Positions 6,844-64,000 of a DNA stretch of 64,000 nucleotides are shown piece after piece (positions within the stretch are counted from its first letter, which is position 1; every line of letters starts with the position of its first letter). Made by a program: the position numbers and the translations under genes. The DNA comes from Hydrogenimonas thermophila (GTDB taxonomy: Bacteria > Campylobacterota > Campylobacteria > Campylobacterales > Hydrogenimonadaceae): NCBI RefSeq assembly GCF_900115615.1, contig NZ_FOXB01000004.1, forward strand, positions 1 to 64,000, given 5' to 3'. The notes under the pieces are model-generated. The model searched no databases, had not been told where the DNA came from, and was given only the letters and a program-made list of their open reading frames with translations.

Positions 6844-8103
6844 ATGAATAGTACAGTAACTGTCTCTCAGCTTAATGAACAGATTAAGTCATTGCTTGAA
6901 TCTACCTTTATTCAGATTCGTGTAGAGGGTGAGATTTCACAAGTTACTTACCATACTAGCGGGCATATCTACTTTACTATAAAAGATGAAAAGAGTTCTC
7001 TTTCGTGTGTTATGTTCCGCTCCAATGCCAGGAATCTGCGTTTTCGCCTTGAAGCGGGTCAGCATGTAGTACTTAGCGGTGCTATTACTGTTTATGTCCC
7101 TCGCGGTAATTATCAAATGTTGGTACAGACTGCTGAGCCTTACGGAGTAGGCTCTCTTTCTATTGCTTTTGAACAACTAAAAAAACAGCTTCAAGCAGAA
7201 GGTCTTTTTTCACCTGAAAGAAAAAAACCTATTCCAAAAAGAGTACGACATATTGTTATTGTTACATCAAAAACAGGTGCAGCAATTCAAGATATGATTC
7301 GTGTAGCTACAAAGCGCTGGCCTCTTGTTAAAATTACACTTATTGATACATTAGTGCAGGGAGCTGAAGCTGCACAAGAGATTGCACGCCATATTGCTTA
7401 TGCAGATAGTTTAAAAGCAGATGTGATTATTGTTGGGCGTGGTGGCGGAAGTTTGGAGGATCTTTGGGCTTTTAATGAAGAGGTTGTAGCCCGTGCCATA
7501 TATGCTTGTAAAACACCTGTGGTTTCTGCTGTCGGTCATGAAGTAGATACAATGATCAGTGATTTTGTAGCCGATATGCGTGCTCCTACTCCAAGCGCTG
7601 CTATGGAGCAGATATTGCCGGACAAAATAGAAGTTCTTTATGCACTTGATGAGATGATGCAGCGAATAGAGAGCAGAATGCATCAAATTCTTAACCTTAA
7701 ACTTCAGCAACTTCAAAGTATGCAAACTCAGCTGGAACAGAATGCCATAAGCAAAAAAATTGATATGCAACTGCAAATAATCAATCAGCTTAAAATACAG
7801 CTTAAACAGCAAATGTCTCGCTTTTTAAATCAAAAAAGTGAAACACTTTTACCAATAAAAGAGCAGATTAAATATATTCAAAATAGGGTTTTGGAACATA
7901 AAAATAGTCAATTAAGCTCACTTACTTCTCAGTTGTCATCTCTTGATCCAAAGCTAAAAGTTCGTCCAGGGTTTGTTCAGCTTGTTAAAAATGGAGAGGT
8001 TGTAGGGTTAAAAAGGCTTAAAAGTGGGGATCAAGTATACCTTCAAGATACAAAGTTTATTGCTCAGGCAACTATAGATTCTATTGAAACAATAGATGGT
8101 TGA
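6844..8103 (+). CDS. xseA: Exodeoxyribonuclease VII large subunit
   Basis: This is the catalytic subunit of the single-strand exonuclease VII. The N-terminal OB-fold reads IRVEGEISQVTYHTSGHIYF. The central catalytic region contains the conserved VGRGGGSLEDLWAFNEE and VGHEVDTMISDFVADMRAPTP. A long coiled-coil region follows, and a beta tail begins RPGFVQLVKNGE. I prefer the ATG at 6844 (MNSTVTVSQLN) over an upstream in-frame start at 6820, because family members begin at this point and 6820 lies inside menG. No strong ribosome-binding site is visible. The small subunit xseB is not in this window. Confidence 0.95.
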   Translation: MNSTVTVSQLNEQIKSLLESTFIQIRVEGEISQVTYHTSGHIYFTIKDEKSSLSCVMFRSNARNLRFRLEAGQHVVLSGAITVYVPRGNYQMLVQTAEPYGVGSLSIAFEQLKKQLQAEGLFSPERKKPIPKRVRHIVIVTSKTGAAIQDMIRVATKRWPLVKITLIDTLVQGAEAAQEIARHIAYADSLKADVIIVGRGGGSLEDLWAFNEEVVARAIYACKTPVVSAVGHEVDTMISDFVADMRAPTPSAAMEQILPDKIEVLYALDEMMQRIESRMHQILNLKLQQLQSMQTQLEQNAISKKIDMQLQIINQLKIQLKQQMSRFLNQKSETLLPIKEQIKYIQNRVLEHKNSQLSSLTSQLSSLDPKLKVRPGFVQLVKNGEVVGLKRLKSGDQVYLQDTKFIAQATIDSIETIDG

Positions 8104-54111: not shown

Positions 54112-55053
54112 TTATGTATATGGTCCCATAAATTTGTCACCATTGAAATGAATCATATGATCTGGTTCATTAGCTATCCATACTTCTGTTTCCCATGCTA
54201 TATCAGCAGTATATTTTCTAAAAGTTTTACGATCTGGGAATGCTGTAATATAAATTTTATCAGAGAAACAATTTTTAAACATAGTTTCCAAGTCGTTGAT
54301 TCTCTTTTGATCGATAGGTCCATGGGTTGTTACTGCTTCTATAAGATAAATCCAATTTTTTTTGCAATCGTAAAGAATAACATCAGGTAATTGTAATTTA
54401 TCATCTTCTGATATAGGTATTCCTAGTAACTCCAAAGTATCTGTATCAACATAAATATATTTATCTGCTGTATCTCCAATATATAATAATTTACTTTTTT
54501 GTGCGAAGCGGGGAGCAAATTCATTGATAATATCTACTTGAAGCTGATTGTGAGATCCTGGTGACAAAAAAAATTCTCTATCATTTATTACAAGAGGGAT
54601 TTTATGAATATCACGTTTTTTTGCAAATTGTTCTGAAAGAGATCCAAAATCTGCTATAAATTCTTTAACCAATTGAAAATATTCATCAGTACCATAACTT
54701 TGAATAACCTTTAAAGCAGCATTGGAAATAGAATAATTTGTTTTTCCACTATTAGTAGGTCTACTAGGATCATCAATATTTCGTAAAGCAATGTGGGCTT
54801 GTTCTAAAATTCTAATTACATTTTTTCTAAGAGTTTCACGCGAATTTTCTGCATAAGTAACACCAAAGTTTTTTCTAATATATACAAAGATATCATGCAA
54901 CCTCAATAACTGCTGATTGCTTGCTTGTTGCCATTCAGAGTCAACTTTTAAATTTAGTAATGCAAGAAATGCATATCTCATTAATTCATTATTATATTTT
55001 TTAGGTATTCCAAGATCGTTTAACAGTTTTTCTGCTTCAATTAGACATGACAT
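54112..55053 (-). CDS. BsuBI/PstI-family restriction endonuclease
   Basis: A 313-residue type II endonuclease. The family's C-terminal catalytic half is clear: LSPGSHNQLQ, LLYIGDTADKYIYVD, KLQLPDVILYD, IYLIEAVTTHGPID, YITAFPDRKTF and AWETEVWIANEPDHMIHFNG. Known members cut CTGCAG, so that site is the expected target, not proven. ATG 55053 has AAGG 8 bases upstream; ATG 55068 is in frame too. It overlaps the 3' end of the methyltransferase gene by 17 bp, so the enzyme is translated after its protector. Confidence 0.9.
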   Translation of the reverse strand: MSCLIEAEKLLNDLGIPKKYNNELMRYAFLALLNLKVDSEWQQASNQQLLRLHDIFVYIRKNFGVTYAENSRETLRKNVIRILEQAHIALRNIDDPSRPTNSGKTNYSISNAALKVIQSYGTDEYFQLVKEFIADFGSLSEQFAKKRDIHKIPLVINDREFFLSPGSHNQLQVDIINEFAPRFAQKSKLLYIGDTADKYIYVDTDTLELLGIPISEDDKLQLPDVILYDCKKNWIYLIEAVTTHGPIDQKRINDLETMFKNCFSDKIYITAFPDRKTFRKYTADIAWETEVWIANEPDHMIHFNGDKFMGPYT

Positions 55054-56488
55054 GTGTACTACCTTCATATAATTGTTTAGGAATAGGTAAATTTAAAATA
55101 TCTGTTGCATTTACTTGAGTATTTCCATTTAATATTCTAAAATATTGATCAACTTCTTTTGAAGATAAAAATTTTCCAAGTTTAAGCATTTCATCTATAG
55201 ATAGTGAACCATTAGGTTTATAAAGGTAATTAAGATGATTTTCCAATCCTAAGAATTCAGTATTAAGTTTATTTTGAAATAAATAACCTATATTTATTCT
55301 ACGATATTGTTCTTTTGAGCTAAAGCGTTTAATTATTATATAATTTTTATTTGGAATTAAAAGTGATTTTGTATTTTTACATAGTTCGATATATTGTTCT
55401 TTTTTTTTATTTTCAAGTGGAAATTGAAGATGCTCATTTTTAAAATTATGCATCCATAAAAGGGGAACATATTTACGTTTTGAATCAATTTTATTTTGTT
55501 TTGAAAAAGAAAGGAATTCTTTATTTCTGAAAGCAACTACTTTGCCTGTTGAAATTTTATAACCTAGTGTTTCTATAGTATTATACTCATCATGAAAAAT
55601 TTTTAAAATTTCAACTTCATCATTAGATAATGGTAAACATATAATATTTCTTCTTTTTTCAATTATAGATTCTTTAGAAATATTAATGCTTTGTATGCTT
55701 TTAAATGAGCTGTCTTCACTTGTGCTTATAGTAATTGTATATGAACTTGATTTGGAAAATTTTGAAATAATAGTTTCTTGTAAGATATTTTCGTTTTTAA
55801 AATGCTCTTTTCTAGTATTAAAAATATGAATATGTTCTAAAGTAGCATTTTTCAGAAGGTATTCTCTAAATTTTTTAAAATATGTACCAGAAGTAAAGCT
55901 TCTTGGTGTAATATAAACCATTTCACCATGTTTTTTAAGAAGATCAATTCCTTTTGCCATAAAGAGCATGTAAATATTAGGCTGTCCATGGATAATATGA
56001 CTCATTACTTTTGTTTCAGGAGAATTTTTATTTAGTTTGAAATATGGTGGATTAGATATAATAAAATCAAATTTTTTATTTATATTATCTATTATAAAAT
56101 TTTTTTGAATTATCTTATATGTAAAGTCAATATAAGGGTGAGCATTTTCCCAGCTTTTTATATTATTATTTAGTATTTCAATAATATTTGAATCAAGATC
56201 ATATAGAGTCAGATTAATTTTTTTATAGCCTTGTTGTACAAGTTTAGTAATTAATGCAATAGATAAAATTCCATGTCCGGCACCACAATCAAGAACTTCT
56301 ATCTTATTTGAAGTCGAAACTTTAAAAGAAAATAACCCTGCCATAAAATTAGCTATACGATGATCTGTAAAAAATTGTCCAAGTTTTTTTTTGTATTCCA
56401 AGGAAGTTTTTTGAGTATATTGAGAAGTTTGTTGCTCTAGTGTTTTTAATAGTCTTATATTGTTTTGATTAAGTAGGTCTACTGTCAT
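55037..56488 (-). CDS. N6-adenine DNA methyltransferase (BsuBI/PstI type)
   Basis: A 483-residue class I methyltransferase. The SAM motif is VLDCGAGHGILSIAL near residue 64 and the catalytic motif IV is FIISNPPYFKLN near residue 145. The C-terminal part would hold target recognition. It protects host DNA from the overlapping endonuclease. PstI and BsuBI methylases are of similar size. The gene is AT-rich. Unlike the classical divergent PstI pair, methylase and endonuclease are in one strand here. Confidence 0.9.
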   Translation of the reverse strand: MTVDLLNQNNIRLLKTLEQQTSQYTQKTSLEYKKKLGQFFTDHRIANFMAGLFSFKVSTSNKIEVLDCGAGHGILSIALITKLVQQGYKKINLTLYDLDSNIIEILNNNIKSWENAHPYIDFTYKIIQKNFIIDNINKKFDFIISNPPYFKLNKNSPETKVMSHIIHGQPNIYMLFMAKGIDLLKKHGEMVYITPRSFTSGTYFKKFREYLLKNATLEHIHIFNTRKEHFKNENILQETIISKFSKSSSYTITISTSEDSSFKSIQSINISKESIIEKRRNIICLPLSNDEVEILKIFHDEYNTIETLGYKISTGKVVAFRNKEFLSFSKQNKIDSKRKYVPLLWMHNFKNEHLQFPLENKKKEQYIELCKNTKSLLIPNKNYIIIKRFSSKEQYRRINIGYLFQNKLNTEFLGLENHLNYLYKPNGSLSIDEMLKLGKFLSSKEVDQYFRILNGNTQVNATDILNLPIPKQLYEGSTHVMSN

Positions 56489-56583: not shown

Positions 56584-56982
56584 ATGAATCAAACTGAAAT
56601 TAAGAAAATAGTTAAATCAATAACTATTGAAAGTGTTAAAGATGAGTTACTTCAACTTAAAGAGCTTGGCAAAAAGTATAACTTAGCAATTAGAGGTGAT
56701 AATGAAAAATTGATAGATGAACTTTTAGATCAATCAGATCTAATTACGCAATCAATAGTTAAAAAAATAACACCAACAGGCTTTGTAGCAAAAGAGCTAC
56801 CTAATCCAGTAAACAGTTGGGAGATAATGGATATTGTCTTTTATGATAATTATGAAATTTTGAACTCCGATATAAATGGTGAGAAAGCTATATTTGCAGT
56901 TACCATAACTTCATGTGATGAAATGTCACAGGCTATTCGTATAAAAAATAAAGATTTATCATACTGGGAAGAATTAAAATAG
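56584..56982 (+). CDS. Unknown 132-residue island protein
   Basis: I do not recognise this protein. It is acidic and helical at the N-terminus (SVKDELLQLKELGKKYNL), with a more beta-like second half (NSWEIMDIVFYDNYEILN, KAIFAVTITSCDEM). There is no signal peptide or membrane segment. AAAGGAG stands 8 bases before the ATG, so it is probably expressed. It is divergent from the methyltransferase gene and could be its regulator, but no HTH motif is evident. Confidence 0.6.
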   Translation: MNQTEIKKIVKSITIESVKDELLQLKELGKKYNLAIRGDNEKLIDELLDQSDLITQSIVKKITPTGFVAKELPNPVNSWEIMDIVFYDNYEILNSDINGEKAIFAVTITSCDEMSQAIRIKNKDLSYWEELK

Positions 56983-56990
56983 TTTTGAGA

Positions 56991-57055
56991 TTTGACATTT
57001 ACTACGGGTAAATTTGACATCCCGTAGTAGATATCAAATTTGATGTTTACTACGG
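56991..57055. repeat. TTTACTACGG repeat array with inverted copy
   Basis: TTTACTACGG occurs at 56998-57007 and 57046-57055, with an inverted core CCCGTAGT at 57021-57028 facing the first copy ACTACGGG (57001-57008). TTTGACAT also repeats at 56991-56998 and 57013-57020, 22 bp apart. The array sits just upstream of the 75-residue gene at 57084. It looks like an operator with dyad and direct sites, or a hairpin. Confidence 0.6.
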
Positions 57056-57083
57056 ATATAAAAAAAATTGATTGGAGGAAAAA

Positions 57084-57311
57084 ATGGAAACAATCATTAA
57101 ATTAAATTCGATGCAAAGATTGACGTTAGAAATAGCAATACTTCAAAATATTAAAATTACTGAAAACATACTAGCGTCGGATACTGAAATAGAAGAAGCG
57201 GAGACAGAATATGATAAGAGAACATTAAAGATAATGAATAAACATTTAAAAGAAGAGATTGAAAATCTTAAAAGTATTTTAGAACAGATAGAAGAACAAA
57301 AGATTATATAA
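57084..57311 (+). CDS. Unknown 75-residue coiled-coil-like protein
   Basis: A small acidic protein, METIIKLNSMQRLTLEIAIL at the start, helical with heptad-like leucines throughout (LKEEIENLKSILEQIEE). GGAGGAAAAA directly precedes ATG 57084, so an upstream in-frame TTG is not needed. No known family. It may be a phage-like accessory or regulatory protein behind the TACTACGG array. Confidence 0.55.
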   Translation: METIIKLNSMQRLTLEIAILQNIKITENILASDTEIEEAETEYDKRTLKIMNKHLKEEIENLKSILEQIEEQKII

Positions 57312-57356: not shown

Positions 57357-57431
57357 AAGCCATTAAAAGGAAGAGAAGCAATGAATATAAAAGAGAGTTA
57401 CAAAAGCATATTTACACTTACAGAACTTGCA
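57357..57431 (+). repeat. Left copy of a ~75-bp direct repeat bracketing the ibrA-ibrB cassette
   Basis: This segment matches 62115-62188 nearly base for base (one single-base indel plus a few substitutions around the start codon). It includes the Shine-Dalgarno region, the start and the first ~17 codons of the double-HTH gene at 62138. The two copies, 4.76 kb apart and in the same orientation, bracket the four-gene cassette. They could result from a duplication on insertion and would allow its loss by recombination. Confidence 0.85.
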
Positions 57432-57461: not shown

Positions 57462-57533
57462 ATTATAATACTATATATTTAATCAAAGATTAAGATATAT
57501 AGTATTATAATTATGTAAAATATATAAGGAGTT
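57462..57533 (+). repeat. 72-bp exact direct repeat with long hairpin, copy 1
   Basis: Identical over 72 bases to 59249-59320. It contains a 22-bp/23-bp inverted repeat with one bulge (57463-57484 and 57488-57510, 3-base loop), an embedded TATAAT at the end of the stem, and then TATATAAGGAGTT, the ribosome-binding site of the ibrA-like gene. It may be a promoter plus structured 5' leader. The full identity implies recent duplication or gene conversion. Confidence 0.9.
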
Positions 57534-57537
57534 AGAG

Positions 57538-58827
57538 ATGGTAAAAGAATCTAAAGGTAATGTTTATGAAGAGACTATGAAGAGATTGGAGTTTATATTT
57601 AAAGAGTTTGATAATGTTTATGTCTCTTTTAGTGGCGGTAAAGATAGTGGAGTGCTACTTAATTTAACTCTTAAATATGCAAAAGATAAAGGTATGTTAG
57701 ATAGGTTAGGTGTATTTCATATTGATTATGAAGCACAATATAGTGAAACTACTAAGTATGTAGATAGAGTTTTTGAATCATTACCTAAAGAGGTAGAAAA
57801 TTTAAGATGTTGTGTACCTTTAAAATGTCCTACATCAACAAGTATGTTTGAAACTTATTGGAGACCTTGGGAAGAGAGTAAAAGAGATATTTGGGTTAGA
57901 GAACTCCCTAAAAAATATCTTTCAAAAGATGATTTTGATTTTATAACAGATGATATGAGTGATTATGATTTCCAAAAAAGGTTTTCTCTTTGGTATCATC
58001 AAAAAAGAAAGGCAAAAAAAACTTGTGTATTGATTGGAATAAGAGCTGAAGAGTCGCTTGATAGATGGAGAACAATAGTAAGCGATAGAAATATTAATAA
58101 ATATAAAAAAGTATCTTGGACTACAAAGATGTATGATAATGTTTACAATGCATATCCAATATATGACTGGAAAACAGAAGATATATGGGTTGCAAACGCT
58201 AAATTTGGATGGGATTATAACAAGTTGTATGATCTATTTTATTATGCAGGAGTTCCTTTAAACAGTATGAGGGTTGCATCTCCATTCCATGATGCTGCGA
58301 AAGCGAACTTGTCATTATATAGAGCAATTGATCCTAATATTTGGGGCAAGATGGTTAGTCGTGTAAATGGAGTAAATTTTACTGCTATTTATGGTAATAC
58401 AAAAGCTATGGGATGGAAAAATATTACAAAGCCTAAACATTTTACTTGGAAACAATATGCAATGTTTCTTTTAGAAACTTTACCTAAAGAGATTGCAGAT
58501 AATTATAGAAAGAAACTTGAAACAAGTATAAAGTTTTGGAAAGAAAAAGGCGGTGTATTAAGTGAAGAAGCAATAAAAGATTTGCAAGACGCAGGAATAA
58601 AATTTGAAATTGGAGGTAAAACTAATTATAAAACAGATAAAAAACCAGTAAGAATGGAATATATTGATGAAATAGATAGTAGAGATTTTAAATTAATACC
58701 TACTTGGAAAAGATTATGCGTAACAATATTGAAAAATGATCATGTTGGCAAATATATGGGTTTTTCTCAAACAAAAAGAGAGGCAGAAAAGAGAAAAATG
58801 GCAATGAAGAAATATAAAAATTTATAA
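57538..58827 (+). CDS. IbrA-like PP-loop protein (DUF3440/PAPS reductase family)
   Basis: A 429-residue protein of the phosphoadenosine-phosphosulfate reductase-like ATP-pyrophosphatase family. The PP-loop is VSFSGGKDSGV (residues 29-39). A second family motif is GIRAEESLDRWRTI, and the C-terminal KRLCVTILKNDH plus MGFSQTKREAE match the DUF3440/IbrA pattern. In E. coli IbrA and IbrB are paired regulators encoded on a prophage-like element. Related PP-loop enzymes activate with ATP to move sulfur, as in DndC and TtuA/MnmA. Here the reaction is unknown. It lies behind the 72-bp hairpin repeat and 14 bp before the GNAT-like gene. Confidence 0.82.
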   Translation: MVKESKGNVYEETMKRLEFIFKEFDNVYVSFSGGKDSGVLLNLTLKYAKDKGMLDRLGVFHIDYEAQYSETTKYVDRVFESLPKEVENLRCCVPLKCPTSTSMFETYWRPWEESKRDIWVRELPKKYLSKDDFDFITDDMSDYDFQKRFSLWYHQKRKAKKTCVLIGIRAEESLDRWRTIVSDRNINKYKKVSWTTKMYDNVYNAYPIYDWKTEDIWVANAKFGWDYNKLYDLFYYAGVPLNSMRVASPFHDAAKANLSLYRAIDPNIWGKMVSRVNGVNFTAIYGNTKAMGWKNITKPKHFTWKQYAMFLLETLPKEIADNYRKKLETSIKFWKEKGGVLSEEAIKDLQDAGIKFEIGGKTNYKTDKKPVRMEYIDEIDSRDFKLIPTWKRLCVTILKNDHVGKYMGFSQTKREAEKRKMAMKKYKNL

Positions 58828-58841
58828 CAAGGAGTCTAACA

Positions 58842-59255
58842 ATGAAGATAGATAAACTTATACAAGGCAAAGATAATCAGATTATATTTGGAACTATAGG
58901 GAGTTTATTAACTGATAAAAAAGTCCATGAAGAACTTGGAATGGCAATAACTTCTAAAGATAATGATGAATGGTATGTTATGTATAACGGTAATGATCTT
59001 TTAGGTTTTGCAGTTACAAGAAAAACCAAATCCACAAAGGCATTACATATTAGATTTTTGTATTTACTTGATATTGATCAGGCACATAAATTTAAAAAGT
59101 TATTGATAAAAGAGATAATAAAAAATGCTACCAATGACAATTTAAAAGCAGTATGGACAAATGATAGAAAAAAAGAGAGAGCATGGAAAGATTTAAAATT
59201 TAATTTTACTGAAAGAAGCAGGGGAGAATTTGGGCGATGGGAGAAGAAATTATAA
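58842..59255 (+). CDS. GNAT-like small protein
   Basis: A 137-residue protein whose layout looks like a GNAT acyltransferase: EWYVMYNGNDLLGFAVTRK as a central strand pair, FKKLLIKEIIKNATNDNL as a helix after the acyl-CoA site, and a C-terminal ERAWKDLKFNFTERSRGEF. I do not see a clean R/Q-x-x-G-x-A loop, so CoA binding is uncertain. A GNAT-fold enzyme in a phage-like DNA-modification setting recalls Mu Mom, which is speculation here. AAGGAGTC precedes the ATG. It is co-transcribed with the ibrA-like gene and precedes the second 72-bp repeat. Confidence 0.55.
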   Translation: MKIDKLIQGKDNQIIFGTIGSLLTDKKVHEELGMAITSKDNDEWYVMYNGNDLLGFAVTRKTKSTKALHIRFLYLLDIDQAHKFKKLLIKEIIKNATNDNLKAVWTNDRKKERAWKDLKFNFTERSRGEFGRWEKKL

Positions 59256-59320
59256 TACTATATATTTAATCAAAGATTAAGATATATAGTATTATAATTA
59301 TGTAAAATATATAAGGAGTT
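59249..59320 (+). repeat. 72-bp exact direct repeat with long hairpin, copy 2
   Basis: Exact copy of 57462-57533. Inverted arms are 59250-59271 and 59275-59297. It overlaps the last codons of the GNAT-like gene and gives the ibrB-like gene its ribosome-binding site. Recombination between the copies would remove 1,787 bp: the ibrA-like and GNAT-like genes with one repeat. Confidence 0.9.
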
Positions 59321-59325
59321 GACAA

Positions 59326-59844
59326 ATGTCATTTAAAAGTCCAATTTATAATGTTAAAGCTATTCCATTAGAAAAGATTAGAGCAAATTCATATAATCCT
59401 AATAGAGTTGCTCCACCAGAAATGAAACTTCTTGAAAAATCCATTTGGGAAGATGGATATACACAACCTATAGTATGTTATTACATTGAAGAGAAAGATA
59501 TTTATGAAATAGTTGATGGATTCCATCGTTACACTGTTATGAAAACATCTAAAAGAATCAGAGAAAGAGAAAAAGGATTGTTACCAGTTGTTGTAATAGA
59601 TAAAGATGAAAGCAATAGGATGGCATCTACTATTAGGCATAATAGGGCAAGGGGGACACATGATATTGATTTGATGGTTAATATAATTCAAGATTTAGTT
59701 GAAAGTGGTATGAGCGATCAATGGATAATGAAGAATTTAGGGATGGATGCAGATGAATTATTAAGATTAAAACAGATTAGTGGTATTGCTGCACTTTTTG
59801 CAAATGAAGAGTTTTCTAAAGGTTGGGAAAAGATAGATGGCTAA
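59326..59844 (+). CDS. IbrB-like ParB/Srx-domain protein
   Basis: A 172-residue protein of the ParB N-terminal (ParB/sulfiredoxin fold) family, as in IbrB. Motifs are IPLEKIRANSYNPNRVAPPE, EDGYTQPIVCYY, YEIVDGFHRYTVM, TIRHNRARGTHDIDLM, and a helical end LGMDADELLRLKQISG that may read DNA. ParB-fold proteins bind CTP or have nuclease activity, and the exact activity here is unknown. It lies behind the second hairpin repeat and overlaps the helicase start by 8 bp, so the two are coupled. Confidence 0.82.
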   Translation: MSFKSPIYNVKAIPLEKIRANSYNPNRVAPPEMKLLEKSIWEDGYTQPIVCYYIEEKDIYEIVDGFHRYTVMKTSKRIREREKGLLPVVVIDKDESNRMASTIRHNRARGTHDIDLMVNIIQDLVESGMSDQWIMKNLGMDADELLRLKQISGIAALFANEEFSKGWEKIDG

Positions 59845-62095
59845 TTGGTATGGCTACTCTATAAAGCAAAAATTTTTACTTTATGAAGGGAAAAAATCTT
59901 GTTTGTTTAGGGTGCCTTATAGTAAGTATAGATTTTGGCATCCTAAAAAACTTGTTAAAAATTCAAATAGCGATTTTTTTAAAATTTTATATACTGATGG
60001 TTTTAAATTTAGACTTTTTAAATCTAAAAAAGAGAATGATAATTGGATTAATTATGATGAAAAATCAGTTAGTATTGATGAATTAAAAAATTTTATTGAA
60101 AATCCTATAGTTTTAGAACTAAAAAGAGGTTCAATAGTTGCACAAACAGAAAATTCATATCTTTTTGGCTATATAGATTCAGATCGTAGATTTATAAAAT
60201 TTTGGATAAGCAGAAACGATTGTCAAAAAGTAAAGGATACAATATTAGTATATTTAATGAGAGATGAAGAGTATGAAATAATTATCAATGATGATGATAT
60301 TGAAGAAAAAAGAGAAAAAATTGATAGCGTTGACTTGTATTGTAACTATAAAGCAAATAAAGCTTTGCTAGATAGATTTGGAATAGATTTATCGCCAGAA
60401 AGATTGCCAGTCCCTAAAGATGTAAAGATTGATAAAGCTTTGATTGATGATGATTTATGTAATTATAATGAGACAGGTAAGTTACAAACTAAAACCACAC
60501 TATTTTTACATCAGCAAAAGGCAGTAGCAAAAGTTTTACCAGCAAGGTATAGTGCTTTATTTATGGATATGGGAACAGGAAAGACAAGAACAACAATAGA
60601 GATTTTAAAAATAAGACAAAATAAATATAGAAAAGTTTTTTGGATAACTCCAGTATCGTTAAAATATAATGTATTAATGGAGTTTTTAAAGCACACCAAT
60701 CTATCAAGAGAAGATATATATTTATTTGACGATAAAACAAATAATGAAATGGAGATAAAACAGAGATTTATAATTGTAGGAATAGAATCAATTGCATCTT
60801 CTGATAGAGTATATTTAGCATTGAAAAAGTTTATAGAAAAAGATGATTTTATTATTGTTGATGAGAGTAGCTTTATAAAAGGTAACTCAAGAAGAGTTAA
60901 GAGAGCAAAAAGAATTATTGAATTAACAAGAGACACAAGATATAGAATGATTTTAACAGGTACTCCAATTACACAAGGAATAGTTGATTTATATACTCAA
61001 ATGTATTTTTTATCGCCTAAGATTTTAGGATATAGGAACTTTTATCATTTTGCACGAAATCATCTTGAGTATGATAAAGAAATAATAGGTAGGATAGTAG
61101 CAGAATATAATGAAGATTATATTGCAGCAAGAATCAATCCTTATATTTATCAAATCAGCAAAGAAGAGTGTTTAGAGTTAAAAGGCAAAAATTATATAGA
61201 AAAATATTTTTATATGACTGAAGAGCAGGAAATTGAATATAAAAAAACAAAAGATTATTTTTTTGAGAGATTTATATCATATGACATAGATTCAATTTTT
61301 CCACTATTTAATGAACTTCAGCAAATAGTAGCAGGTTTTAGATATAAAGAAAATGATGAAGTCGAAATTATAGATGATATAAGAGTTTATGTTTTACTTG
61401 AAGTTATCAACGAGATTGAACTAGATAGAAAAATAATAATATGGACTAAATATAGAATGGATATAGTGTTTATAGAAAAGATGATGAATGAAAAATTTGG
61501 AAAAGATAGTTATGTAGTATATGATGGAAATCTAAATGAGGAGAAGAAAAACCAGGCAATAAATAGATTTAAAACTGATAAAAAAGTTAGATTTTTTATC
61601 GCTATGCAATCAGCAGCTGCATTTGGATTAAATTTAGTTGAAGCCAAATATGCAATTTTTTACAATAATAGCTTTAAATATTCACAAAGGATTCAAGCGG
61701 AAGATAGAATTTATAGAATTGGGCAGGATAGTAGCGTAACATATATTGATATTATTTGTGATGAAAGTATTGATACAACTATTAACTATTCATTATTTTT
61801 GAAAAGAAATGTTGTCGAATACTTTAAAAATGAAATTAATGCAATAAAAGATAAAAAACTTAAAAAAGCACTATTGGAAGCAATTATAAATGGTGATTTA
61901 GATAGTTATGATGAAGTTAAGAAAAAGGCACAAAAAAGCAGTGCAGCTAAAAGGATGGAAAAAATGAGAAGAAAAAGAGGAGTTATACCAAGAGATGAAT
62001 ATATAAAAAATTCATTAATGCATAAAGCACCTTGGAAAGAGTTAGGTATCAGCAGGGCTACTTGGTATAGAAAATATAAAAATAAAGCGATATGA
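59837..62095 (+). CDS. SNF2/DEAD-type helicase of the ibrA-ibrB cassette
   Basis: A 752-residue superfamily 2 protein. About 200 N-terminal residues are unassigned. The helicase core has Walker A FMDMGTGKTRTTIEIL near residue 243, FIIVDESSFIKG, MILTGTPITQG, and SNF2-like motif VI region RIQAEDRIYRIGQDSSVTYI. The C-terminus reads RDEYIKNSLMHKAPWKELGI then SRATWYRKYKNK, a resolvase-like HTH. It may be a translocase acting with the ParB-like protein on DNA. It overlaps that gene by 8 bp. Confidence 0.85.
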   Translation: MANWYGYSIKQKFLLYEGKKSCLFRVPYSKYRFWHPKKLVKNSNSDFFKILYTDGFKFRLFKSKKENDNWINYDEKSVSIDELKNFIENPIVLELKRGSIVAQTENSYLFGYIDSDRRFIKFWISRNDCQKVKDTILVYLMRDEEYEIIINDDDIEEKREKIDSVDLYCNYKANKALLDRFGIDLSPERLPVPKDVKIDKALIDDDLCNYNETGKLQTKTTLFLHQQKAVAKVLPARYSALFMDMGTGKTRTTIEILKIRQNKYRKVFWITPVSLKYNVLMEFLKHTNLSREDIYLFDDKTNNEMEIKQRFIIVGIESIASSDRVYLALKKFIEKDDFIIVDESSFIKGNSRRVKRAKRIIELTRDTRYRMILTGTPITQGIVDLYTQMYFLSPKILGYRNFYHFARNHLEYDKEIIGRIVAEYNEDYIAARINPYIYQISKEECLELKGKNYIEKYFYMTEEQEIEYKKTKDYFFERFISYDIDSIFPLFNELQQIVAGFRYKENDEVEIIDDIRVYVLLEVINEIELDRKIIIWTKYRMDIVFIEKMMNEKFGKDSYVVYDGNLNEEKKNQAINRFKTDKKVRFFIAMQSAAAFGLNLVEAKYAIFYNNSFKYSQRIQAEDRIYRIGQDSSVTYIDIICDESIDTTINYSLFLKRNVVEYFKNEINAIKDKKLKKALLEAIINGDLDSYDEVKKKAQKSSAAKRMEKMRRKRGVIPRDEYIKNSLMHKAPWKELGISRATWYRKYKNKAI

Positions 62096-62114: not shown

Positions 62115-62188
62115 AAGCCATTAAAGGAAGAGAAACAATGAAAGAAAAAGAGAGTTACAAAAGCATATTTACACTTACAGAACTTGCA
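62115..62188 (+). repeat. Right copy of the ~75-bp direct repeat
   Basis: Partner of 57357-57431. Here it forms the intact 5' end of the double-HTH gene. After the shared GAACTTGCA this copy continues in frame, while the left copy meets a stop. Confidence 0.85.
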
Positions 62189-62572
62189 GACTATTTAGGA
62201 GTAACCAGACAAGCAATATCATCATACAAGAAAAACAATCCTAAAAGATTTGAACTTATATTACTTGGATATGCTGCTAAGAAGTTAGATATTAGCTATG
62301 ACGACTTAAAAGAGCTGAATAAACTAAAAGGTTGCATTGTAGCAGATAATAAGAGGAATGATTATAGATATTTTTACAATATACAAGAGTTAGCAGATTT
62401 TTTAGAAGTAGCATTAGATACAGTAAGAGCATATAGAAAGAAAGATACATCACCTTATAAAAGAAATGAATTAATAAAATTAGGATTTGCAGTATATAAA
62501 CTAAATGTTAATTTTAATGATTTAATAGAATTTGATAATTATAAAAAATCCAAAGACAAGTTAAGCAAATAG
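62138..62572 (+). CDS. Double helix-turn-helix protein
   Basis: A 144-residue protein built of two similar halves. Residues 7-59 read FTLTELADYLGVTRQAISSY, a clear HTH, and end LDISYDDLKEL. Residues 73-132 read FYNIQELADFLEVALDTVRA and end LNVNFNDLIEF. The tandem halves suggest a protein that binds two half-sites on its own. AAAGGAAGAGAAACA precedes the ATG. It follows the helicase by 42 bp and is the likely regulator of the cassette or island; a truncated copy of it lies on the cassette's other side. Confidence 0.7.
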   Translation: MKEKESYKSIFTLTELADYLGVTRQAISSYKKNNPKRFELILLGYAAKKLDISYDDLKELNKLKGCIVADNKRNDYRYFYNIQELADFLEVALDTVRAYRKKDTSPYKRNELIKLGFAVYKLNVNFNDLIEFDNYKKSKDKLSK

Positions 62573-63503: not shown

Positions 63504-63710
63504 ATGCAAACAATCCAGATAGAGATAGAAGATCCACTATATAAAGAGATAGTAAAAAAAGGCATTGATATTAAAAAAGAGCTAGAGGAAAATATCCGTA
63601 AAATTGTTTATGCCAAAGAGTATAAAATGGCAGAAGAGATCAAAACATCATTGCAAGATTTAAAAGAGGGTAAGTCAAGACCATTGAGTGAGTTTTTAGA
63701 TGAGATTTGA
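63504..63710 (+). CDS. Antitoxin of a RelE/ParE-type module
   Basis: A 68-residue protein with a beta-strand start MQTIQIEIEDPLYKEIVKKG and a helical, acidic tail ending GKSRPLSEFLDEI, the layout of RelB/ParD-like antitoxins. AAGGAGGAGC stands before the ATG. It overlaps the toxin gene by 11 bp, typical of type II pairs in which the antitoxin comes first. It should bind DNA and repress the pair. Confidence 0.75.
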   Translation: MQTIQIEIEDPLYKEIVKKGIDIKKELEENIRKIVYAKEYKMAEEIKTSLQDLKEGKSRPLSEFLDEI

Positions 63711-64000
63711 AACTCTTCCGTTATTTGAAAAACAGGTTAAAAGACTTTTGAAAAAATATCCACACATAAAAGAGGATATAAAAAACTTTGCTAATGATTT
63801 TACTGAACTGCACCAGAAAGCAACTCCTATTAAGAAGAGTATCTTTAAAGTTAGAATAGCAAACAGTGATAAAAACAAAGGTAAGAGATCAGGTTATAGA
63901 GTTTACTACTATTATAAAGTTGATGATGTTGTTTATTTGCTAAACATCTATGATAAATCTAAGATAGAGATGATAGATGAAAAGATTGTATTTGAAGAGA
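63700..64000 (+). CDS. RelE/ParE-family toxin (cut by window end)
   Basis: The frame opens at ATG 63700 inside the antitoxin end and runs off the right edge with about 100 residues visible. It begins MRFETLPLFEKQVKRLLKKY and has KKSIFKVRIANSDKNKGK, then SGYRVYYYYKVDDVVYLLNI and YDKSKIEM. This fits the RelE/ParE superfamily, whose members cut mRNA on ribosomes or poison gyrase; which type is not decided. The last residues are missing. Confidence 0.75.
   Translation, partial: MRFETLPLFEKQVKRLLKKYPHIKEDIKNFANDFTELHQKATPIKKSIFKVRIANSDKNKGKRSGYRVYYYYKVDDVVYLLNIYDKSKIEMIDEKIVFEE

Follow-up and report, generated by a model that had tools for sequence, protein, structure and literature searches.

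A duplicated palindromic leader before ibrA and ibrB in Hydrogenimonas thermophila: a putative promoter with operator

Why should two genes of one operon carry the same leader? In the window (the whole stretch of DNA that was analyzed, 64,000 bp of Hydrogenimonas thermophila, positions 1 to 64,000 of contig NZ_FOXB01000004.1 in assembly GCF_900115615.1), identical 72-bp elements, each dominated by a palindrome, stand before the ibrA-like and the ibrB-like gene of a four-gene cassette (ibrA-ORF2-ibrB-helicase, with the leader in front). On balance we favor the reading that this element is a promoter with a palindromic DNA operator, which appears to have been copied to the junction between ORF2 and ibrB.

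The repeated leader and its predicted promoter

The two copies are 100% identical, exactly as a first-pass annotation of this DNA had it, and are spaced 1787 nt apart; a genome-wide search found these two copies, all remaining matches being the same palindromes on the opposite strand. Each palindrome is A+T-rich and has perfect outer arms of 17–18 bp followed by an inner TTAATC-AAA-GATTAA with one G unpaired (23–24 bp in total, close to the near-perfect 22-bp stem described at first pass). They are the strongest two palindromes within the window, with a score of 17 as compared to 9–12 for the best palindrome in ten Markov-simulated stretches of 10.2 kb, and the single-strand fold of the leader beats all 200 shuffles (RNA folding z-scores of -4.7 and -5.7 for the two copies). 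The TATAAT hexamer and the ribosome-binding site, both of which had also been pointed out, are present: the leader ends in AAGGAGTT, 4–5 nt upstream of each ATG, and TATAAT lies in the 3' arm of each palindrome; as ATTATAAT equals its reverse complement, the hexamer also falls in the 5' arm, there on the opposite strand (Table 1). An intrinsic terminator was rejected, since a G+C-rich stem with a T run was not found. Rfam gave no match up to E 1, nor did a search of plasmid and phage DNA.

The promoter reading rests on the position and conservation of one hexamer. TATAAT is found 24–33 nt upstream of the ATG in each of the four ibrA leaders that this clade has yielded in Campylobacterota, namely those of the window, of the closest relative of the cassette (L019, a Campylobacterales metagenome-assembled genome; IbrA identity 87%), of L129 (another, truncated ibrA of the L019 genome), and of L005, and the last two keep it though the palindrome is absent there. 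The chance expectation is about 0.026 per 30 bp, and TATAAT was not found before the relatives' ibrB or the other genes examined, the sole exception being the window ibrB, which has it via the duplication. In Epsilonproteobacteria, sigma-70 promoters carry gnTAnaAT 4–8 nt before the start of transcription and lack a -35 box (PMC3847290). Given this spacing and a conserved -10 box in the 3' arm, transcription is expected to start after the stem, and the center of the palindrome falls about 33 bp upstream of the expected start, where operators act.

In the mechanism that we propose, the 72-bp unit would serve ibrA as promoter/operator and ribosome-binding site, on a mobile element of conjugative type. 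RNA polymerase would use the right-arm TATAAT and start about 6 nt downstream, giving an ibrA mRNA leader of about 20 nt, while the palindrome, with its core TTTAATC-NNN-GATTAA, would remain in the upstream DNA and would most likely be bound by a symmetric regulator (IbrB is one candidate). A short DNA-copying event, perhaps via ATTA and AAGGAG matches, would have placed the unit at the ORF2-ibrB junction, where it would have ended ORF2 early and given ibrB its own, identically controlled promoter. Such a control element is unusual in detail and ordinary in kind. The shared control of ibrA and ibrB suggested by the first-pass annotation is plausible from the sequence, in that TATAAT and palindrome were copied together; of the two levels it allowed for, a DNA operator is favored, and control through RNA is less likely at ibrA, where the -10 box would put the start after the stem.

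Table 1. Coordinates of the leader copies, their predicted parts and the genes of the ibr cassette in the window.
Feature	Position	Strand	Remarks
72-bp leader, copy 1, before ibrA (ancestral position)	57462..57533	+	Identical to copy 2; homologous palindrome before L019 ibrA
72-bp leader, copy 2, before ibrB (derived by duplication)	59249..59320	+	Identical to copy 1; same junction without copy in L019 and L005
Palindrome 1	57462..57511		Outer arms 57462-57478/57495-57511; inner TTAATC 57479-57484, GATTAA 57488-57493
Palindrome 2	59248..59299		Outer arms 59248-59265/59282-59299; inner TTAATC 59266-59271, GATTAA 59275-59280
Predicted sigma-70 -10 box TATAAT, ibrA	57506..57511	+	Start of transcription expected near 57516-57520; conserved position and sigma-70 rule (PMC3847290)
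Predicted -10 box TATAAT, ibrB, brought by duplication	59293..59298	+	Absent before ibrB in L019 and L005
Ribosome-binding site AAGGAG, ibrA	57526..57531	+	Sequence
Ribosome-binding site AAGGAG, ibrB	59313..59318	+	Sequence
ibrA-like, PAPS reductase domain and DUF3440	57538..58827	+	Pfam PF01507, PF11922; phrog_2302
ORF2, predicted GNAT-fold acetyltransferase	58842..59255	+	AlphaFold pLDDT 92; Foldseek to GNATs, E about 3e-6
ibrB-like, ParB N-terminal domain and C-terminal helical region, KorB/Noc/ParB-like	59326..59844	+	PF02195; phrog_2159; Foldseek to Noc, KorB, ParB
SNF2-type helicase, last gene of the cassette	59837..62095	+	PF00176, PF00271; phrog_62

Conservation in relatives and origin of the ibrB copy

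Among the 25 ibrA loci whose upstream regions we compared with the window, only L019 has a palindrome beyond chance before ibrA. It aligns with that of the window, keeping the core TTTAATCnAnGATTAAG, both TATAA ends and the ribosome-binding region, so that the stem is conserved before ibrA in a related island, one of the points on which the first-pass annotation had let its proposal stand or fall; the symmetric core is thus shared with one independent relative. Over the 18 outer positions the arms of the two palindromes differ by a T-A to C-G change, a T-A to A-T change, a C-G pair lost on both sides and one G-U, and none of the pairs is broken (p about 1e-5 on the assumption of independent change in the arms). 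Using a strict pattern (core and ends) on two samples of Campylobacterota genomes that overlap (397 and 399 genomes), we found the palindrome in the window and the L019 genome only; 2.9 million viral contigs contain one match, which lies inside an unrelated phage gene and was set aside as chance. With two copies of the leader in its own genome and one in the L019 genome, the leader does not behave as a dispersed mobile repeat (miniature inverted-repeat transposable element, MITE, or repetitive extragenic palindrome, REP). The palindrome is absent before ibrA in L005 (whose IbrB is 79% identical) and in the phage ibrA loci examined. L129 was considered as a third homologue of the palindrome and rejected, as it keeps the -10 box but not the palindrome. 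We note that this truncated ibrA (L129 4076-4332) ends beside a ruvX-like gene; 88 bp at the L129 junction recur near the L019 cassette (L130 13415-13502), which suggests that the 3' end of ruvX serves as an attachment site for an island.

As judged from the aligned junctions, the copy before ibrB is derived and stems from a recent duplicative insertion, because the junction is without a palindrome in both L019 and L005, and in L019 ORF2 (7298-7717) and ibrB (from 7714) overlap by ATGA. The recent duplication put forward at first pass is therefore supported. L005 lacks ORF2, and 11 nt lie between its ibrA and ibrB (comparing this gap across loci mixes those with and without an intervening gene, and the value is used for L005 only). 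The beginning of copy 2 lies within the final codons of ORF2 and contributes the stop codon (TTA TAA), and the ORF2 C-terminus reads ...EKKL in the window rather than ...EREIKKGGKR. The duplication thus gave ORF2 its stop codon and put a predicted promoter into a formerly overlapping junction. Short matches at both ends of the copied unit (ATTA and AAGGAG) suggest that a homology-assisted copying event produced copy 2. The copied unit brings -10 box, palindrome and ribosome-binding site together (as a predicted promoter), and the locus would be a clear-cut natural case of a promoter duplicated within an operon, with the pre-insertion arrangement still present in a relative. In L019, the start regions of ibrA and ibrB have 21 identical bases in common (AAAAGGAGGAAAGAGATGAGC), which may reflect a similar, smaller copying event.

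Candidate regulator and alternative explanations

Which protein might bind the palindrome? Two had been named, a double-HTH (helix-turn-helix) protein and a ParB-like one. The former (gene at 62138-62572) is unlikely to be a conserved binder, because the palindrome-bearing L019 genome has no homologue of it at E 0.1. The ParB-like candidate, IbrB, fares better in part. Its predicted model matches Noc, KorB and ParB over about 160 columns (Foldseek; E about 1e-6, TM 0.5–0.6), extending beyond the N-domain to the helical part, so that the predicted model has both a ParB N-terminal domain and a ParB-like helical region, and IbrB is encoded in both palindrome-bearing cassettes (window and L019). 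The palindrome is not found wherever IbrB is encoded, however, as L005 (79% identical) and phage IbrBs go without it before ibrA, and IbrB is a candidate binder only. A role of IbrB in transcription is not far-fetched, because IbrAB have been described as activators of prophage eib genes (see below). A fuller version, in which IbrB would be a KorB-like regulator with operator TTTAATC-NNN-GATTAA, the cassette would control itself, and the duplication would have made two separately controlled units with a fixed IbrA:IbrB ratio, seems to us quite unlikely. Phages and plasmids widely carry IbrA/IbrB pairs, whose biochemistry is little understood. If IbrB did bind here, this would be the first defined binding site for this widespread phage and plasmid family, and the conserved candidate operator before ibrA offers a direct way into the question of whether IbrB is a sequence-specific DNA binder.

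Several observations weigh against a promoter with an operator. The -10 box of the window is without the upstream G of gnTAnaAT. A regulon search of its own genome with the core TTTAATCNNNGATTAA returned the two copies as the only perfect matches, and at one mismatch a single recurring form (TTTAATCAGTGATTAT) makes up most of the matches, chiefly close to contig ends; these matches do not show a regulon. A protein operator needs no complementary outer arms, and the paired changes fit RNA pairing or template switching equally; L005 keeps IbrB without the palindrome; and the independent palindromes known are two (window and L019), too few to tell selection on pairing apart from template-switching repair. 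As for TTTAATCAGTGATTAT, it is found in G000 C12, C34, C35, C42, C44, C48, C58 and C60, mostly within the first or last 100 or so bases, and probably belongs to a genomic repeat at which the assembly breaks, unrelated to the leader as far as seen.

During replication, a perfect stem can be created or repaired by one template-switching event (PMC8794818). It is conceivable, if rather unlikely, that an A+T-rich promoter became a palindrome in this way and was kept perfect without selection on pairing, that the same instability produced the second copy, and that only the -10 box and ribosome-binding site matter. One template-switch event would account for the paired one-base deletion in both arms, and the L129 remnant and L005 have the -10 box and no palindrome, but the core TTTAATCnAnGATTAAG and the TATAA ends are unchanged while the intervening arms change, which suggests selection on the core.

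The strong predicted fold (z of -4.7 to -6.2) and the paired arm changes between the window and L019 are also what one would see if the stem acted as RNA. It would then belong to a transcript that begins further upstream (or, in the case of copy 2, reads through from ibrA), and as an AU-rich hairpin ahead of the ribosome-binding site it would control mRNA stability, processing or translation. A read-through mRNA from ibrA would indeed carry copy 2 as a hairpin. We consider such an RNA leader unlikely, however: the conserved -10 box inside the 3' arm puts the start beyond the stem and is retained in relatives without the stem, the ribosome-binding site lies outside the stem, and a match in Rfam is absent. 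That the repeats are recombination or cassette-exchange sites around ibrA-ORF2 (integron-attC-like, or a small mobile repeat) is highly improbable, for although 72-bp direct repeats flanking a 1.8-kb gene pair would allow RecA-dependent deletion or amplification, L019 has a single copy and the window's own genome no further ones, attC boxes (RYYYAAC/GTTRRRY) are absent from the 72 bp, and the repeats sit upstream of genes with a -10 box and a ribosome-binding site.

The cassette, its setting and known systems

The genes identify the locus as an IbrAB cassette, with a PAPS reductase-DUF3440 protein adjoining a ParB N-terminal-domain protein. ORF2, a third gene between ibrA and ibrB that the first-pass annotation missed, is without such a leader; we found no family match for it and no homologue in viral contigs. 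Homologues of ORF2 also sit between ibrA and ibrB in L019, L006 and L033. The cassette region is A+T-rich, and its likely location is a conjugative or integrative element, because genes that by eye, from their translations, encode a ParA-like protein and a coupling protein of the VirD4/TraG type follow downstream on the same contig. The L019 and L005 cassettes likewise adjoin mobile-element genes (also by eye).

A 75-bp direct repeat flanks the whole ibr cassette (57357-57431 and 62115-62188); its left copy is the start of a double-HTH gene that ends after 17 codons (MNIKESYKSIFTLTELA*), and its right copy belongs to the intact gene (MKEKESYKSIFTLTELADYLG...), so insertion of the cassette at the beginning of the double-HTH gene is a possibility, as is its loss by recombination between the repeats. 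Other features nearby include a second operator-like cluster at 56980-57058 (TTTACTACGGG and CCCGTAGTAGA alternating, three copies, direct and inverted, before a small ORF at 57084-57311), a BsuBI/PstI-type restriction endonuclease and an Eco57I-like methylase adjoining the cassette (54112-56488, minus strand), and, downstream of it, a small gene pair resembling a toxin-antitoxin module (63504-63990; RelB/RelE-like by eye).

Among known systems, the sigma-70 promoters of Epsilonproteobacteria share with the predicted ones the TATAAT box, the lack of a -35 box and the short leader (PMC3847290), but in the window the -10 box is embedded in a 50-bp palindrome, so that the same hexamer is on both strands. 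The ibrAB genes of E. coli ECOR-9 are regulators or activators of prophage eib genes, so far as the citation of Sandt 2002 in PMC6008420 goes; these and the phage IbrA/IbrB belong to the same two protein families, with ibrA adjoining ibrB. In most of the phage relatives checked, the helicase is directly upstream of ibrA, overlapping or abutting it, and a palindrome is absent, whereas the window has ibrA-GNAT-ibrB-helicase and a duplicated leader. In the IncP plasmid RK2, KorB binds OB (TTTAGC[C/G]GCTAAA) and KorA binds OA (TTTAGCTAAA) at korAp, and these operators act at promoters in a geometry comparable to that of the window palindrome (PMC2680271). The predicted fold of IbrB is close to KorB, and the half sites of both begin with TTTA; in the window, the half site is instead TTTAATC and the spacer 3 nt, and the palindrome is longer, has outer arms that are complementary, and is found only in this cassette, with IbrB as a candidate binder.
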